NCBI RefSeq assembly: GCF_015207665.1
Contig: NZ_JADEWL010000032.1
Span: 1-53,277 of the forward strand
DNA length: 53,277 nt
DNA from: Plectonema cf. radiosum LEGE 06105
GTDB taxonomy: Bacteria; Cyanobacteriota; Cyanobacteriia; Cyanobacteriales; Nostocaceae
Reading direction: 5' to 3'
Shown: positions 167 through 7,343 of the stretch, one piece after another
Layout: each line of letters begins with the position of its first letter
Numbering within the stretch: position 1 is the first letter of the stretch
Program-made: the position numbers and the translations under genes
Notes under the pieces: model-generated
The model's input: the letters and a program-made list of their open reading frames with translations, nothing else
Databases searched by the model: none
Told to the model about the DNA's origin: nothing

Positions 167-2380
167 ATGAGCTACTATATTTCTCCGCGTTTTGAAGATA
201 AACTTGCCGTTCACATTACTAAAAATTATCTTGACCTTCCGAATGTACGAGTACCTTTGATTTTGGGTATTCACGGACGTAAGGGTGAAGGAAAATCTTT
301 TCAATGTGAATTAGTTTTTGAAAAAATGGGTGTTGAGGTTACTCATATTTCTGGTGGTGAATTAGAAAGTCCGGATGCAGGAGATCCAGCACGTTTGATT
401 CGGTTGCGCTATCGGGAAACTGCGGAATTAATCAAGGTGCGCGGTAAAATGTGTGTGTTGATGATTAACGATTTGGATGCGGGTGCTGGACGTTTTGATG
501 AAGGTACTCAGTACACGGTCAATACTCAATTGGTTAATGCTACCTTGATGAATATTGCTGATAATCCTACCGATGTACAGTTACCCGGTAGTTATGATTC
601 TACTCCTTTGCATCGCGTTCCCATTATTGTTACAGGGAACGATTTTTCTACTTTATATGCCCCATTGATTCGTGATGGAAGGATGGATAAGTTTTATTGG
701 GAACCCAATAGAGATGACAAAATTGGGATTGTGGGGGGAATTTTTAGCGAAGATGGTTTATCACAGCGAGATGTAGAACAACTGGTAGATAATTTCCCCT
801 TTGCTGCTGTTGATTTTTATAGTGCATTGCGATCGCGAATTTACGATCAACAAATTCAGCAGTTTATCCACAATGCTGGAATAGACAAGGTATCTTCACG
901 GGTAGTGAACAGCAACGATGTTCCATCATTCAAAAAACCCAATTTCGGTTTATCAGATTTGATGGAAATGGCTAATTTAATGGTTAACGAACAAAAATGG
1001 GTCGATGATTCGCGGTTGGTTGAAGAATATAATCGCGGTGCATTAAGGCATCAAAAGCATTTTATCCCAACTGCTGCACAAACACCCGTCTATGAAGCCA
1101 GACCAACTGCAAATTTTGATGGGGAACCAATATCTACTTATCATGCCAGACCGACTGCTAATTTTGATGGGGAACCAATCCCAACTTATCAAGCCAGAGT
1201 AAGTTATCAAGCACAAGCAGAAGCAGTTAAAATTCCCCAACTTCCATCTTCTCATCAATCTGTAAATCAAGGTACAAACCCTATGATTAAAGATACATCA
1301 ACTGCAACAACCCATGTTGGACCTGAAATACTCAGTTATATGCAGAAAATTTTGGCATCGGGTAACCATTTGAGCATAGAATATGCAGATAAAGACAGCT
1401 TTAGCAAGGGTGATTGGCAAAGATTTTCAAATCACGAAATAGATGATATGGCTGATGCGATTGGAGATTTGGAACGATGTCTAGTTAGTCATAATGAAGA
1501 TTATGTAAGGGTTGCTGGAATCGACTACAAAACCAAGCTGCCAGTCATGGAAACCATAATTCAAAATCCTAATGAAAAAAATAGCGGTTCGACTTTCCGT
1601 TATCCACCTACTCAACATCAGAAACAATTAAGTAGCGATTCCACTTTCCGTTATCCATCTACAACTCAACATCAACAGCAATTAAGTAGCGATTCGAGCT
1701 TCCATTATCCACCTACAACTACTCAACACGAGAGCAAACAAAGTAGCGATTCAACTTTTCGTTATCCAGCTACAACTCAACATCAACAGCAATTAAGTAG
1801 CGATTCGAGTTTCCATTATCCACCTACAACTACTCAACACGAGAGTAAACAAAGTAGCGATTCCACTTTCCGTTATCCAGCTACAACTCAACATCAACAG
1901 CAATTAAGTAGCGATTCGAGTTTCCATTATCCACCTACAACTACTCAACACGAGAGTAAACAAAGTAGCGATTCCACTTTCCGTTATCCACCTACTACTA
2001 CAGTGTCTCCCTTCCCTGCTCCCCATACAGCTTTCCAATCTGGAGAAAACCGTACCTTAAAAGATGCGAATCAATATAATCCAGGGATATCTACAGCCCA
2101 TGTAGAGCTAGAAATTTTAGAACAAATGCGGGAAATTTTGGCATCAGGAAACCATATTGGTATAGAATACGTAGACCAACGTCGATTCTACACAGGTTCA
2201 TGGAAGAGTTTTGCCGGACATCAAATAGAAGATATGGCAGACGCGATCGCAACATTGGAAGCTTGTTTAGTCGAACATAACAATGATTATGTGCGTATTT
2301 TCGGAATTGAACCCCAAGCCAAGCGACGGTTAAGAGAAATCATCGTTCAGCGTCCAAATGGTAAACTTGTTCACAAGTAG
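167..2380 (+). CDS. rca: Rubisco activase with two C-terminal SSUL domains
   Basis: AAA+ Rubisco activase. In cyanobacteria this family removes inhibitory sugar phosphates from Rubisco and is linked to carboxysomes through a small-subunit-like (SSUL) domain resembling those of CcmM. Visible: Walker A GRKGEGKS (37-44), Walker B LMINDLDA (98-105), and the AAA+ core to about residue 290. A 16-residue repeat (ARPTANFDGEPI core) stands twice at about 311-342. SSUL domain 1 covers about 382-470, a Ser/Thr/Gln/His-rich repeat linker 473-612, and SSUL domain 2 about 644-737. Both SSULs have the YVR and GI core of CcmM modules. Each keeps only one cysteine (in LERCL and LEACL); the position of the partner cysteine in CcmM SSUL1 is occupied here by F or F/A-type residues, so an intradomain disulfide is unlikely. 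At 737 residues it is far longer than the usual single-SSUL protein of roughly 410-430. The ATG at 167 is the first in frame. The usual rbcLXS genes are not in view. Confidence 0.95.
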   Translation: MSYYISPRFEDKLAVHITKNYLDLPNVRVPLILGIHGRKGEGKSFQCELVFEKMGVEVTHISGGELESPDAGDPARLIRLRYRETAELIKVRGKMCVLMINDLDAGAGRFDEGTQYTVNTQLVNATLMNIADNPTDVQLPGSYDSTPLHRVPIIVTGNDFSTLYAPLIRDGRMDKFYWEPNRDDKIGIVGGIFSEDGLSQRDVEQLVDNFPFAAVDFYSALRSRIYDQQIQQFIHNAGIDKVSSRVVNSNDVPSFKKPNFGLSDLMEMANLMVNEQKWVDDSRLVEEYNRGALRHQKHFIPTAAQTPVYEARPTANFDGEPISTYHARPTANFDGEPIPTYQARVSYQAQAEAVKIPQLPSSHQSVNQGTNPMIKDTSTATTHVGPEILSYMQKILASGNHLSIEYADKDSFSKGDWQRFSNHEIDDMADAIGDLERCLVSHNEDYVRVAGIDYKTKLPVMETIIQNPNEKNSGSTFRYPPTQHQKQLSSDSTFRYPSTTQHQQQLSSDSSFHYPPTTTQHESKQSSDSTFRYPATTQHQQQLSSDSSFHYPPTTTQHESKQSSDSTFRYPATTQHQQQLSSDSSFHYPPTTTQHESKQSSDSTFRYPPTTTVSPFPAPHTAFQSGENRTLKDANQYNPGISTAHVELEILEQMREILASGNHIGIEYVDQRRFYTGSWKSFAGHQIEDMADAIATLEACLVEHNNDYVRIFGIEPQAKRRLREIIVQRPNGKLVHK
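1097..1192 (+). repeat. 48-bp direct repeat inside rca (two copies)
   Basis: Two 48-bp units, 1097-1144 and 1145-1192, each encode a 16-residue peptide beginning ARPTANFDGEPI. They lie in the linker between the AAA+ core and the first SSUL domain and keep the reading frame. Confidence 0.85.
1583..2001 (+). repeat. 111-bp tandem repeats coding the inter-SSUL linker
   Basis: Three nearly identical 111-bp units begin at 1631, 1742 and 1853, with a partial unit from 1964 and a degenerate one before 1631. Each unit encodes 37 residues made of two related halves, SSDSTFRYPATTQHQQQL and SSDSSFHYPPTTTQHESKQ. The near-identity of the DNA, including synonymous positions, points to recent in-frame expansion. 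Confidence 0.9.
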
Positions 2381-2491: not shown

Positions 2492-3022
2492 TTAAACCAA
2501 TCCAAAAACGTTGTTAAGAACAATTTGTTCGGGTGAATAGTCAAAGGTAAGTATTCCAGACAAATTATCCCAAGTTTTACGACCTACAATTCCATCAGCC
2601 GTAATCTTTTCATAATTTTGATATTTAACCACAGCAGCTTTTGTTTTTGCTCCAAAATCACCATCAATTGCACCAATATCTAACTTTATTGGCTTTTCTA
2701 ATTGCGGTGAAATTTCTTCAGTTTTTTGTAATAAACTCTGTAATCTTTTAACTTCTTCACCTTTGGAACCTTGTTTTAAAATAGGTCTTTGTGATACCCA
2801 GATACCCCGTTGTATAGCTGATTCTGTTTCCATTCCGACAACACCATCAACAGCAACAGCATTGTTCTTTTGAAAAGCAATTACAGCAGCTTCAGTTTTT
2901 GCACCAAAATCACCATCAATGCTAGCAGAATAATAACCGAGAGTTTTTAAGCGTTGTTGTAATCTGGTAACAGCAGCACCTTTGGAGCCTTTTTTTAGTG
3001 TTACGAAATTAGAATTTGTCAT
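2492..3022 (-). CDS. Protein with two peptidoglycan-binding (PG_binding_1) domains
   Basis: The 176-residue protein is almost entirely two PG_binding_1 modules, at about residues 6-70 and 80-155. Each has the family pattern of G-S-K-G-x-x-V-x-x-L-Q, then IDGDFGAKT, then DG(V/I)VG. This fold usually binds cell-wall peptidoglycan. No signal peptide and no catalytic domain is seen, so the exact role and the route to the wall are unknown. It is a close relative of the larger gene ending at 3825, with the same start pattern (MTNSNFV versus MTTSFIV), which supports the chosen ATG at 3022. Confidence 0.85.
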   Translation of the reverse strand: MTNSNFVTLKKGSKGAAVTRLQQRLKTLGYYSASIDGDFGAKTEAAVIAFQKNNAVAVDGVVGMETESAIQRGIWVSQRPILKQGSKGEEVKRLQSLLQKTEEISPQLEKPIKLDIGAIDGDFGAKTKAAVVKYQNYEKITADGIVGRKTWDNLSGILTFDYSPEQIVLNNVFGLV

Positions 3023-3039
3023 GATATTTACCTATTTTT

Positions 3040-3110
3040 GATAGTTGATAGTTGATAGTTGTTGGTTGTTGGTTGATATTTATTTCTCCCCATCACCCCA
3101 TCACTCAACC
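3040..3110. repeat. STRR block and right arm of the 32-bp inverted repeat
   Basis: Heptamer repeats (GATAGTT, GTTGGTT) directly precede the minus-strand gene at 3022. Positions 3063-3094 are the exact reverse complement of 18-49. Confidence 0.8.
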
Positions 3111-3126
3111 CTACTTTTGGGAAAAA

Positions 3127-3597
3127 TTAATCGGGTAACTTAATCTTTCCCGGGCCAGTTTCTTCGGAAACCCTTTCAATATTAAAATTCTCAATATTGC
3201 TTTCAAAGCGATTGAAAACAACTCTAATTTCGCTATAACCAATTGCACTCGAAGCACCTCTAGGAGTTTTACATTTCACCCGCATTAAAGTTTGAAAACC
3301 ACCATAAGGTTCGTTAATATAAAAGCTGCGATTACAATCAAAACCAATAAAACCTTCTAATGCTAACTGGTTGAGAGCAGCTACACCCATACGACTATCA
3401 ATCAGCGATTTTATTTGATCGATTTCGTCTTTTTGACTCATTCGCAGCCATTTATCTTTTGGTTGTCTATTCTGAGAATAAGTAGATTCGGGAATCGTGT
3501 TTTTGGGGGTTGCCAAGACTTGATTATTCAACAACCATAATAATGGAGTTGCTATCACAATCGATGCAATCGCTAACTTTTTCATAGAATGATTCAT
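3127..3597 (-). CDS. Small secreted protein of unknown function
   Basis: Hypothetical protein of 156 residues. A hydrophobic N-terminus after KK (LAIASIVIATPLLWLL) ending near VLA-TP looks like a signal peptide. The mature part has two cysteines (in FDCNRS and RVKCKT) that could pair outside the cytoplasm, and ends in KIKLPD. A second methionine at residue 5 is an alternative start. It lies between two peptidoglycan-binding genes on the same strand, which is compatible with a cell-envelope role, but no family was recognised. Confidence 0.6.
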   Translation of the reverse strand: MNHSMKKLAIASIVIATPLLWLLNNQVLATPKNTIPESTYSQNRQPKDKWLRMSQKDEIDQIKSLIDSRMGVAALNQLALEGFIGFDCNRSFYINEPYGGFQTLMRVKCKTPRGASSAIGYSEIRVVFNRFESNIENFNIERVSEETGPGKIKLPD

Positions 3598-3672
3598 AGT
3601 ACTTTTTTCATAAAATAGGACTCAATATTGAAAATTGAAATTTTGCAGTACACTTAATTATTCCCTACTCCC

Positions 3673-3770
3673 TAAGTAGTTAGGCGTAATTAAATGTAAG
3701 ATCAAACCTCAGCCCTTCCCCTCTCCTTGCCAAGGGGGGGTGAGGTTTTATATTTAATTTCACCTACTTA
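3673..3770. repeat. MITE-like imperfect inverted repeat (about 98 bp)
   Basis: The ends TAAGTAG (3673) and CTACTTA (3764-3770) are inverted. AAACCTCA (3704-3711) pairs with TGAGGTTT (3741-3748), and the centre holds CCTTGCCAAGG. The left arm and the reverse complement of the right arm are alignable for about 45 bases. It resembles non-coding dispersed elements common in Nostocales genomes; mobility is inferred only. Confidence 0.6.
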
Positions 3771-3824
3771 CTTATTCCCTATTCCCTACTTTCTACTCCC
3801 TTGATTAGAGAAAAGTTTTTCCTA

Positions 3825-4892
3825 TTAACAACCAACTATCGATTCTACCTTTAATTGATAGGTAGTATTACCGCGAGTTGCACTTACATTAATAGAATAT
3901 TTACCAGCTTCCAGGAAAACCTGAGAATTGCTAGCTTCAGTTAGATAAACTTTACCATCTCCAACTCGAATTAATTCAAATACTGCATTACTTTCTACAG
4001 AAGTAATTATAATAAGAAAATTTTGTTCTGGTTCTACTTCAAGTCTGTGAATAACTGTTTCACCTCTTATGGCTGCATCTTCTACAACTTCAAATTCTTT
4101 GCCTTGAGTAAAATTCAATAATTTACCATAACGGTAACTTAAAAGTTCATCTATTAACTGCTGATTTAAACCTTGAGAAATCATAACTTGATAAGTTTTC
4201 ATTCCCACAACTCCATCAATCACTAAACCTTGACGTTGCTGAAAGTTTTTGACAGTTTGTTCAGTTGCTTGTCCGAAATTGCCATCTTCTAAAATACCAC
4301 TTGTACTACCAGAAACATAATTGAGGAATTTTTGTAAAATTAAAACATCTCGTCCTTCATCACCCTTTTTCAGTGGTAACTTAATCAATATTTCTGTTTC
4401 TAACTCACCAAAAAAAGCTTTGATTCTATCTTCGTCAGGTATATCATGCCGAGCTAAAGTATATAAAGAACTCCAAGTTTTTTGTCCGACAATACCATCA
4501 GCTTTAAGTGCTCTGGCTTTTTGAAAATCGATTACAGTTGTTTTGGTTTTCGCACCAAAAACACCATCTACAATCAGCGAGCCAAAATTACTATACTCCA
4601 ACATACCTTGTAATAACTCAACTTCATCACCTCTAGAACCTTCTCGGAGAGTTTCTCTTTGTGATAACCATACAGCTTCATCCAACTGTAAAATAGTTTC
4701 TGCATCAACAATTCCATTATTAGGAAGATGACTGTAAAGCTGTTGAAACTTAATTACTGCTGCTTTTGTTTTACCACCAAAAATGCCATCAATTGCACCC
4801 AAATATAAATTGAGTTGTTTTAAAGCTTGTTGTAACTTTGTTACTTTTAATCCAGTTACACCTGATTCGAGAACAATAAAGCTAGTAGTCAT
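3825..4892 (-). CDS. Protein with three peptidoglycan-binding domains and a C-terminal beta-rich domain
   Basis: Counting from the ATG at 4892, the protein has 355 residues. Three PG_binding_1 modules lie at about 4-70, 75-140 and 172-245, with motifs such as IDGIFGGKT, VDGVFGAKT and IDGVVGMKT. The last 90 residues (from about 265) form a separate, probably beta-rich domain of unknown type. A longer reading frame runs to 5000, but the ATG at 4892 has a GGAG eight bases upstream and matches the start of the paralogue at 3022, so it is preferred. No signal peptide is visible from this start. Wall binding is family knowledge; the cellular role is unknown. Confidence 0.85.
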   Translation of the reverse strand: MTTSFIVLESGVTGLKVTKLQQALKQLNLYLGAIDGIFGGKTKAAVIKFQQLYSHLPNNGIVDAETILQLDEAVWLSQRETLREGSRGDEVELLQGMLEYSNFGSLIVDGVFGAKTKTTVIDFQKARALKADGIVGQKTWSSLYTLARHDIPDEDRIKAFFGELETEILIKLPLKKGDEGRDVLILQKFLNYVSGSTSGILEDGNFGQATEQTVKNFQQRQGLVIDGVVGMKTYQVMISQGLNQQLIDELLSYRYGKLLNFTQGKEFEVVEDAAIRGETVIHRLEVEPEQNFLIIITSVESNAVFELIRVGDGKVYLTEASNSQVFLEAGKYSINVSATRGNTTYQLKVESIVGC

Positions 4893-5127
4893 GGTATTCT
4901 CCACTGTTGTATCTTTTTTGCTCCTATAACTACATATCTCCTTTGAAAGTTCCGGAAATATACATTGCTTTAAAATACATAGGGAACACAGAAGAATCAA
5001 ATCTTACTCCCAACACCCTCTACAATTACGATTCACCCGTAGTGTGCGGTTCATTTCTATGAAAGCTCTTTCCAAGCAGCTTCTTTGTGTCTAATAGTCT
5101 ATCTCATTAAATTTAAATATTTCTAGT

Positions 5128-6173: not shown

Positions 6174-7343
6174 ATGAGTTTAATCAAAACAGCCGTCCGT
6201 TGGCGACATGGAACTTTTGTATTATTTTGTATTCTGGCTTTATTCGGTGTTTTATCATTATTAAGTTTACCTTTGGAATTGCGACCGGGGGGAGATAGAC
6301 CGGAAATTACAATTAGTACTACTTATTCTGGTGCTAGTCCTTCGGAAGTTGAGGAATTAATTACTCGTCCGATTGAGGAAAGATTGGAGGAAGTTCAGGG
6401 AATCCAGGAAGTTACTAGTAGCAGTGCTTCTGGTATCAGTACTATAAATTTAGAATTTAACTGGGATAGCGATATAGATCGACGGTTGGTGGATGTTTTA
6501 AATAAACTCCAGCAGGTAGAAGCATTACCACCGGAAGCAGGGGAATCTAATGTAGAAATTGTCAGCGGTAGCAGCAGTCCGATGATGTGGACAATACTGG
6601 TTGCTAAGGAAGGATTTACACCCGATGACGAACAACCCGAAATCATGCGGAGTCTTTTAGGAGCATTAATAGACCAAACACAACAGCAAATTATCGCACC
6701 GCTACGGCAAACATTACCAACAGGTTTCCGCGTAGAATTAGCTGGCTCTGCCGATGTGCTATCGGAAACATTATTACAATTGGCTTCAAGTTTCGTTTTA
6801 TCTTTAATAATTACCTATTTACTCTTAGTTGCTTTATATCGTTCCTTCTCCTTCCCTCTATTAATCATGGCAACAGTACCAATGGGAATATCGGGAGCAT
6901 TATTAAGCTTAATTCTGGCAAATTCAATTCCCGGTGTATTGGTTCCCCTGGATATGATTACCGGATTAGGATTTGTAATTTTAACCGGAGTAGTAGTTAA
7001 TAACGCAATTTTACTTGTAGATCGGTCGCTACAACTACAAAACGAAGGTAAAAGCTACGACGATTCCCTTTATTTAGCAGTAAAAGATAGATTGCGTCCC
7101 ATATTCATGTCAGCAGGAACCAGCGTCTTAGGTATGCTACCTTTAGCAGTAATTCCGGGAAAAGGAGCGGAATTATATCAAGGATTGGGGATTGTTTTGA
7201 CCGGAGGTTTAGCATTTTCTACAATTCTTACACCAACTGTAGTCCCTGCATTAATGGGATTATTGCAGGATTATTCTGGTAAGAACAACGTTGAAACAAA
7301 ACAATTACAACAAATCGATAAAATACCCACAGCAAGGACATGA
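6174..7343 (+). CDS. RND-family efflux protein lacking its central ~600 residues
   Basis: The N-terminal part is a normal AcrB/HAE-type start: TM1 (FVLFCILALFGVLSLLSLPL) and the first porter subdomain with SGASPSEVEELITRPIEE. Near residue 160 (about base 6650) the sequence switches to the C-terminal half of an RND pump: IIAPLRQTLPTGFRVELAG, then the last membrane segments with VVVNNAILLVDR and RPIFMSAGTSVLGMLPL. Full RND permeases have about 1000-1050 residues; this has 389. Membrane segments 2-7 and most of the periplasmic domain, including the central proton-relay region, are absent. The frame stays open, so this is either an in-frame deletion derivative or a decaying gene. No membrane-fusion partner gene is adjacent. 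It is unlikely to act as a drug pump. Confidence 0.85.
   Translation: MSLIKTAVRWRHGTFVLFCILALFGVLSLLSLPLELRPGGDRPEITISTTYSGASPSEVEELITRPIEERLEEVQGIQEVTSSSASGISTINLEFNWDSDIDRRLVDVLNKLQQVEALPPEAGESNVEIVSGSSSPMMWTILVAKEGFTPDDEQPEIMRSLLGALIDQTQQQIIAPLRQTLPTGFRVELAGSADVLSETLLQLASSFVLSLIITYLLLVALYRSFSFPLLIMATVPMGISGALLSLILANSIPGVLVPLDMITGLGFVILTGVVVNNAILLVDRSLQLQNEGKSYDDSLYLAVKDRLRPIFMSAGTSVLGMLPLAVIPGKGAELYQGLGIVLTGGLAFSTILTPTVVPALMGLLQDYSGKNNVETKQLQQIDKIPTART

Follow-up and report, generated by a model that had tools for sequence, protein, structure and literature searches.

A Rubisco activase with two small-subunit-like modules in Rivularia-type cyanobacteria, one of which keeps its fold but lacks most of the conserved basic surface

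A 53,277-nucleotide stretch of DNA from Plectonema cf. radiosum LEGE 06105 (the window) carries, at positions 167 to 2380 of the forward strand, an intact, ATG-started open reading frame (ORF) of 737 amino acids that encodes a form IB-type Rubisco activase (Rca) with two small-subunit-like (SSUL) modules. The C-terminal module (SSUL2) is canonical. The inner module (SSUL1) is most likely repurposed, because its fold is kept and it is under strong purifying selection, yet most of its basic surface has been lost. We put at roughly 60% the probability that the activase hexamer offers six canonical Rubisco docks plus six repurposed SSULs for another contact, rather than twelve equal docks. The original prediction for this gene had proposed twelve Rubisco-bridging SSULs per hexamer; two modules per chain are indeed present, but twelve equivalent docks are doubtful given how much of the SSUL1 basic surface is missing.

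The domain layout is well defined. Pfam detects AAA (PF00004) and RuBisCO_activase_AAA_helical (PF21228), both above their cut-offs, along with two stretches of RuBisCO_small (PF00101). The AAA+ activase core (residues 1 to 290, positions 167 to 1036) contains GRKGEGKS and INDLDAG stretches, within residues 34 to 45 and 100 to 106, which we take to be Walker A and Walker B; their columns are invariant or nearly so in 47 aligned activases. Judged by its domains and conserved nucleotide-binding residues, the protein is a form IB (green-type) Rubisco activase. Residues 2 to 290 match the AAA structure of Nostoc Rca (6z1d) with an expect value (E) of 3.1e-159, and although the window starts at the very start of its contig (C292), the gene is complete, because its N terminus aligns with that of Nostoc Rca. 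SSUL1 (residues 382 to 471, positions 1310 to 1579) and SSUL2 (residues 644 to 733, positions 2096 to 2365) each match the Nostoc Rca SSUL structure (6has) when searched alone (E of 8.7e-18 and 8.7e-28), as well as the SSULs of CcmM, and a genome-wide PF00101 scan separates them on the contig (C292:1313-1570 and C292:2099-2356). Module limits are hidden Markov model (HMM) envelopes, corrected for a 3-residue ORF offset. Linker 1 (residues 291 to 381, positions 1037 to 1309) and linker 2 (residues 472 to 643, positions 1580 to 2095) are predicted to be disordered. An AlphaFold2 model contains two folded SSULs, with residues 285 to 382 and 471 to 643, and two short stretches within the AAA core, under a predicted local distance difference test (pLDDT) score of 50; mean pLDDT for the full-length model is only 58.6, which makes it uninformative on domain placement. 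The Pfam and PDB matches and the model thus agree with the predicted order of one AAA+ core and two SSULs, the coordinates of which had been right to within a few residues.

The key difference between the two modules lies in the basic residues of the SSUL surface. According to the available excerpts of PMC8580825, changing CcmM R251, R252, R298, R367, or R481 to aspartate essentially abolished homodemixing, and the area of R251, R252, and R254 is also involved in Rubisco binding. Column numbering in our alignment matches the places given in those excerpts for R251, R252, R254, C261, C279, D249, E246, D294, and E303. All eight SSUL2s from the genus of the window retain the R251-R252 pair (R672-R673 in the window protein, positions 2180 to 2185), compared to none of the eight SSUL1s, where DSFS (residues 410 to 413, positions 1394 to 1405) stands in the window protein at the place of R251-R252-x-R254. 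At column 251 the SSUL1s have D (five), H (one), or a gap (two), and at column 252 they have K (two), S (two), R (one), Q (one), or a gap (two); R254 is gone from all eight, and two have lost three loop residues altogether. Outside SSUL1 the pair is nearly universal. Of the 155 other SSULs compared, a count that includes SSUL2, 149 have it, and the six remaining sequences (three RH, two IR, and one R-E) each have one arginine left, so that all 155 have at least one. By group, the alignment comprised, besides SSUL1 and SSUL2, 21 CcmM SSULs and two from Hassallia, all with the pair, and 89 activase SSULs (84 RR, 3 RH, and 2 IR). The pair is likewise present in 32 additional CcmM SSULs drawn from ten loci (31 of the sequences are distinct), bringing the CcmM total to 53 of 53. 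The comparison with CcmM suggested by the original prediction separates the modules: SSUL2 retains the pair like CcmM, and SSUL1 does not. The total of 149/155 is the sum of 147/152 and 2/3 of later-added rows: L155 and the SSUL piece of L130, both with the pair, and L135, without it. Alignment counts left out matches below 60 bits (RbcS proteins; L122, which ends before the loop; and L135), the L130 piece, and identical rows. In L130, from a single genome (G175), the activase is split between two reading frames, one with the core and the other with the SSUL, reflecting a frameshift or a sequencing error.

The loss extends beyond the arginine pair. At nine positions that are basic in at least 85% of 112 other aligned SSULs, SSUL1 keeps 29% and SSUL2 keeps 93%. 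Conserved hydrophobic columns are 93% kept in both modules, and conserved acidic columns are 82% kept in SSUL1 and 99% in SSUL2. Mean net charge is −5.1 for SSUL1, −3.1 for SSUL2, and −0.7 for single-SSUL activases. All 21 SSULs of seven CcmM proteins from the same genus have the pair; therefore, the Rubisco site itself is probably unaltered in this Rivularia-type genus.

Despite these losses, SSUL1 is, by its family match and its model, a member of the SSUL fold and sequence family (PF00101), with the modeled module superimposing on 6has at a target template modeling (TM) score of 0.96 and a root mean square deviation of 1.0 Å. SSUL1 is also held under strong purifying selection. Median ratios of nonsynonymous to synonymous substitution (dN/dS) were 0.064 for the core, 0.236 for linker 1, 0.085 for SSUL1, 0.433 for linker 2, and 0.091 for SSUL2, using the simple counting method of Nei and Gojobori with Jukes-Cantor correction on 28 pairs of eight species (27 for linker 1), at a proportion of synonymous differences (pS) near 0.5. 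Across the eight species, 62 of 90 columns are invariant in SSUL1 and 61 in SSUL2. The two modules are 53% identical in the window protein, with a mean of 49% between groups, and some residues are fixed and peculiar to SSUL1, several of them in helix 1 (for example, Y at the place of 232 and Q at 234). Each module has one cysteine (C438 in SSUL1 and C700 in SSUL2), both of the C279 type; the residues at the two CcmM cysteine columns are FC in SSUL1 and FC or YC in SSUL2, while 34 of 89 single-SSUL activases have both cysteines. Two cysteines 18 residues apart, as in a CcmM-like redox switch, are found in neither module. The predicted absence of an intradomain redox disulfide of the C261-C279 type thus holds for both SSULs, since each has one cysteine; a disulfide between modules or between chains could still form.

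The dual-SSUL layout is genus-wide and rare elsewhere. It was present in all eight genomes examined from the Genome Taxonomy Database (GTDB) genus of the window, with frames of 636 to 793 amino acids from stop to stop. Members named from agreement in ORF length and domain positions are Rivularia sp. T60_A2020_040, Rivularia sp. MS3, Calothrix parasitica NIES-267, whose genome is nearly complete, an uncultured Calothrix, Richelia sp. SL_2_1, and Richelia sp. UBA3308. Among 80 named activase loci, the best of 164 confirmed, 7 were dual (these six from the genus plus Hassallia byssoidea VB512170) and 73 single. In a survey of 388 genomes of the order, 212 had an activase at an E of 1e-60 or less; 12 open frames of at least 505 amino acids outside the genus, among the matches listed, had one SSUL each, as did a 13th (G091, 518 amino acids) among the matches listed for a second order query. 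Listed frame lengths are only a rough guide, as several were shorter when read (for example, G146, listed at 681 and read as 447). A survey of 386 genomes across the phylum found activase in 71, and outside the order even the longest ORFs, two of 535 amino acids, were single-SSUL. A query with SSUL1 alone at an E of 1e-24 reached 2 of the 388 order genomes, both in the genus of the window, and among the matches listed for an order search with the Hassallia tandem, most were CcmM-like, judged by frame length. The original prediction had raised the possibility that most Nostocales activases are dual, which is rejected by the 73 single loci and the 13 long single-SSUL ORFs. L135, an activase from outside the order (G607) with a diverged sole SSUL, is a possible further case of changed function.

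Phylogenetic analysis places both modules among activase SSULs. In an SSUL tree of 69 rows and 90 columns, sampling 30 of the 89 activase SSULs and built without a mixture model, SSUL1, SSUL2, and the single SSUL of Mastigocoleus form one group (support of 99/95) apart from CcmM SSULs, so an origin of either module from CcmM is not supported. Rhizonema and Scytonema activase SSULs adjoin this Rivularia group (99/91). A core tree of 78 cores after thinning, also without a mixture model, recovers the genus as one clade (100/99), with Mastigocoleus as its sister (99/82) and Hassallia elsewhere. By these trees, duplication of the SSUL took place in the activase lineage and predates the diversification of the genus. 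Hassallia stands apart from the genus in both trees, and its two SSULs are each other's nearest in the SSUL tree; therefore, the dual layout has at least two origins. Rivularia sp. T60 also encodes a second, ordinary rca with one SSUL (431 amino acids, G005:C10:71312-72601, L012 and L128), located some 12 kb upstream of the dual-SSUL gene. This copy has a long branch in the core tree and was perhaps acquired by transfer.

Several observations weigh against a repurposed SSUL1. K298 and R289 are kept in all eight SSUL1s, with K298 in particular speaking against complete loss; one SSUL1 (L005) still has R252, and two have lysine there. Some Rubisco contacts of the Nostoc Rca SSUL interface (6z1g) might survive. 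SSUL2 too is unusually acidic, and its R254 is present in just four of eight proteins. Partial loss of the pair also occurs in sole SSULs, because single SSULs of Mastigocoleus lack R251 and R254, and the strongly diverged module of L135 (30 bits) keeps R251 and has E at 252 in an ungapped reading. To the simple counting behind the dN/dS values can be added a conflict between the trees, as the cores of Rhizonema and Scytonema group with Cylindrospermum (99/90), a conflict that 90 SSUL columns are too few to settle. SSUL1 is sister to the Mastigocoleus module in the SSUL tree (98/78), and the duplication may therefore be older and have been followed by a loss.

If both SSULs instead bound the canonical Rubisco groove, the hexamer would present twelve docks and, besides repairing Rubisco, condense it as a scaffold in the manner of CcmM. 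The presence of two folded SSULs in each chain, joined by long flexible linkers as in CcmM, fits this explanation, as do the retained K298 and R289 and the greater affinity for Rubisco of M58 than of M35, which excerpts of PMC8580825 ascribe to more SSULs. However, most of the conserved basic positions are gone from SSUL1, including the R251-R252 pair in every protein, and cross-linking needs no second SSUL per chain, because an ordinary activase-like protein already aggregates Rubisco (Lechno-Yossef et al., as cited in part of PMC7059596). We consider this explanation unlikely, and the inference of twelve docks is probably wrong.

A distinctly unlikely variant is that SSUL1 binds Rubisco in some other way, at a site left vacant by RbcS, at the face next to the repair site, or on the inhibited form only, and so positions the hexamer. 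The helix 1 region of SSUL1, strongly conserved with fixed differences of its own, could form such a contact, but the identity of SSUL1 to RbcS of the same genome (18%) does not exceed that of SSUL2 (20%), which also rules out that SSUL1 is turning RbcS-like. There is very little probability that SSUL1 is a folded spacer or decaying relic with no binding function of its own. The missing conserved surface, and the absence of three loop residues in two members, would suit a relic, yet a relic would be expected to drift like the linkers, and SSUL1 instead has its 62 invariant columns and a dN/dS as low as that of SSUL2. The chance that the gene is an artefact of assembly or annotation is negligible, even with its position at a contig start and its tandem repeats: the two SSULs are only 53% identical, and the same layout recurs in seven further independent genomes, including assemblies of 6 and 3 contigs. 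The duplicated assembly that the original prediction had warned of is rejected accordingly, with the layout present throughout the genus.

With repurposing of SSUL1 preferred, a division of labor between the modules can be proposed. By homology with Nostoc Rca and CcmM, SSUL2 would act as a canonical Rubisco dock, bringing the hexamer to the Rubisco of the carboxysome matrix. SSUL1 would engage another partner or site, possibly a further activase chain, some protein of the carboxysome, or a different face of Rubisco. Linker 2, at 172 amino acids, would act as a long flexible tether for SSUL2, and it may also serve as a multivalent element for binding or spacing. More tentatively, and at somewhat less than even odds, SSUL1 could have turned to a partner that is neither Rubisco nor gammaCAL, making the hexamer a two-faced connector in which six arms dock Rubisco and six hold another carboxysome component or other activases, with the [ST]F-x-YP repeats of linker 2 making extra weak contacts.

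These repeats appear to be particular to the activase. In the window protein, tandem repeats with 54- and 111-bp periods (positions 1582 to 1999) encode eight [ST][ST]F[RH]YP motifs, and across the genus linker 2 spans 72 to 225 amino acids with 2 to 11 copies of [ST]F-x-YP. The motif was found in no other ORF longer than 120 amino acids among 110 loci, including seven same-genus CcmMs, so a linker motif shared with CcmM was not found. At the DNA level, the pattern matched eight times in rca and at 5 scattered places in the genome, versus 9 for a backward control. Linker 1 (91 amino acids) has tandem YxARPTANFDGEPxPTY units, with a 48-bp repeat array of 2.2 copies at positions 1091 to 1198. 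An internal start producing a CcmM-like, SSUL-only isoform was rejected, as the methionine preceding SSUL1 is, by eye, not a conserved residue of the clade. Calothrix PCC 7716-type activases (L111 and L112, from G386 and G359, and L087) have one SSUL and linkers of roughly 160 to 265 amino acids, with repeated segments of its own in the L087 linker.

The genome comprises 7.6 Mb in 323 contigs. The original prediction had pointed to a possible second rca and to the size of ccmM; only this rca was found in the genome, and one ccmM with three SSULs lies on contig C124, with rbcL and rbcS on C144. In total, six PF00101 domains are present, one in RbcS, three in CcmM, and two in Rca. A further RuBisCO_large-family match at a contig end (G000:C111:3-824) is perhaps a Rubisco-like protein. 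Within the window, the contig start just upstream of rca (positions 1 to 76) carries short tandem repeats (GGATGGGG, CAACCAA, and TCAACTG units). Beside rca on the opposite strand (positions 2492 to 5000) lie two ORFs that match PG_binding_1, one over two stretches and the other over three, and a 389-amino-acid AcrB-family ORF at 6174 to 7343 has two PF00873 stretches, one at the C-terminal end of the profile (833 to 1017 of 1021); it resembles a transporter that has lost a large internal segment.

Compared to known systems, the protein combines familiar parts in a new arrangement. It resembles Nostoc-type Rca/ALC (6z1d to 6z1f, 6has, and 6z1g) in its AAA+ core, its C-terminal canonical SSUL on a linker, and a host with ccmM, but has an extra diverged SSUL between the two, linkers of 91 and 172 amino acids with tandem motifs, and one cysteine per SSUL. 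Like CcmM (M58/M35), it has several tandem SSULs on flexible linkers; unlike CcmM, it has an AAA+ core in place of gammaCAL and two SSULs instead of gammaCAL plus three to five, with SSULs of activase descent, an SSUL1 that lacks the basic pair, and linker repeats not found in any of the seven CcmMs of the same genus. The Hassallia activase (L051, 3501-5171) also has two SSULs, of separate origin, which are 92% identical to each other, both with the pair and without cysteine. As the sole case found with the pair kept in both modules, it is the more plausible candidate for a genuine double Rubisco dock. In the parts of the sources available, Rca is reported to bind the side of Rubisco and pull the RbcL N terminus (PMC9951593), CcmM SSULs to bind the groove between RbcL dimers (PMC11973430), and a single small-subunit-like domain (SSLD) to be fused to Rca (PMC5853843). 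SSULs are known to serve as adaptors for Rubisco and are also bound by CcmM gammaCAL, and their R251-R252 area is reported to contact both. No description of a two-SSUL activase was found in the open full-text literature, searched by titles and the starts of abstracts, with subscription papers outside the search; a phrase search returned nothing beyond studies of CcmM and unrelated papers.

As a naturally occurring SSUL with its fold and selection intact but most of its basic surface lost, SSUL1 is a ready-made separation-of-function variant. It can reveal the residues that hold Rubisco and may lead to another beta-carboxysome partner, and the dual and ordinary rca genes of Rivularia sp. T60 form a natural pair for comparison. 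It also cautions that SSUL counts taken from domain annotation alone are not equivalent to the number of Rubisco-binding sites. If the hexamer proves to be a two-faced connector, the activase would be a built-in organizer of the Rubisco matrix in this genus.
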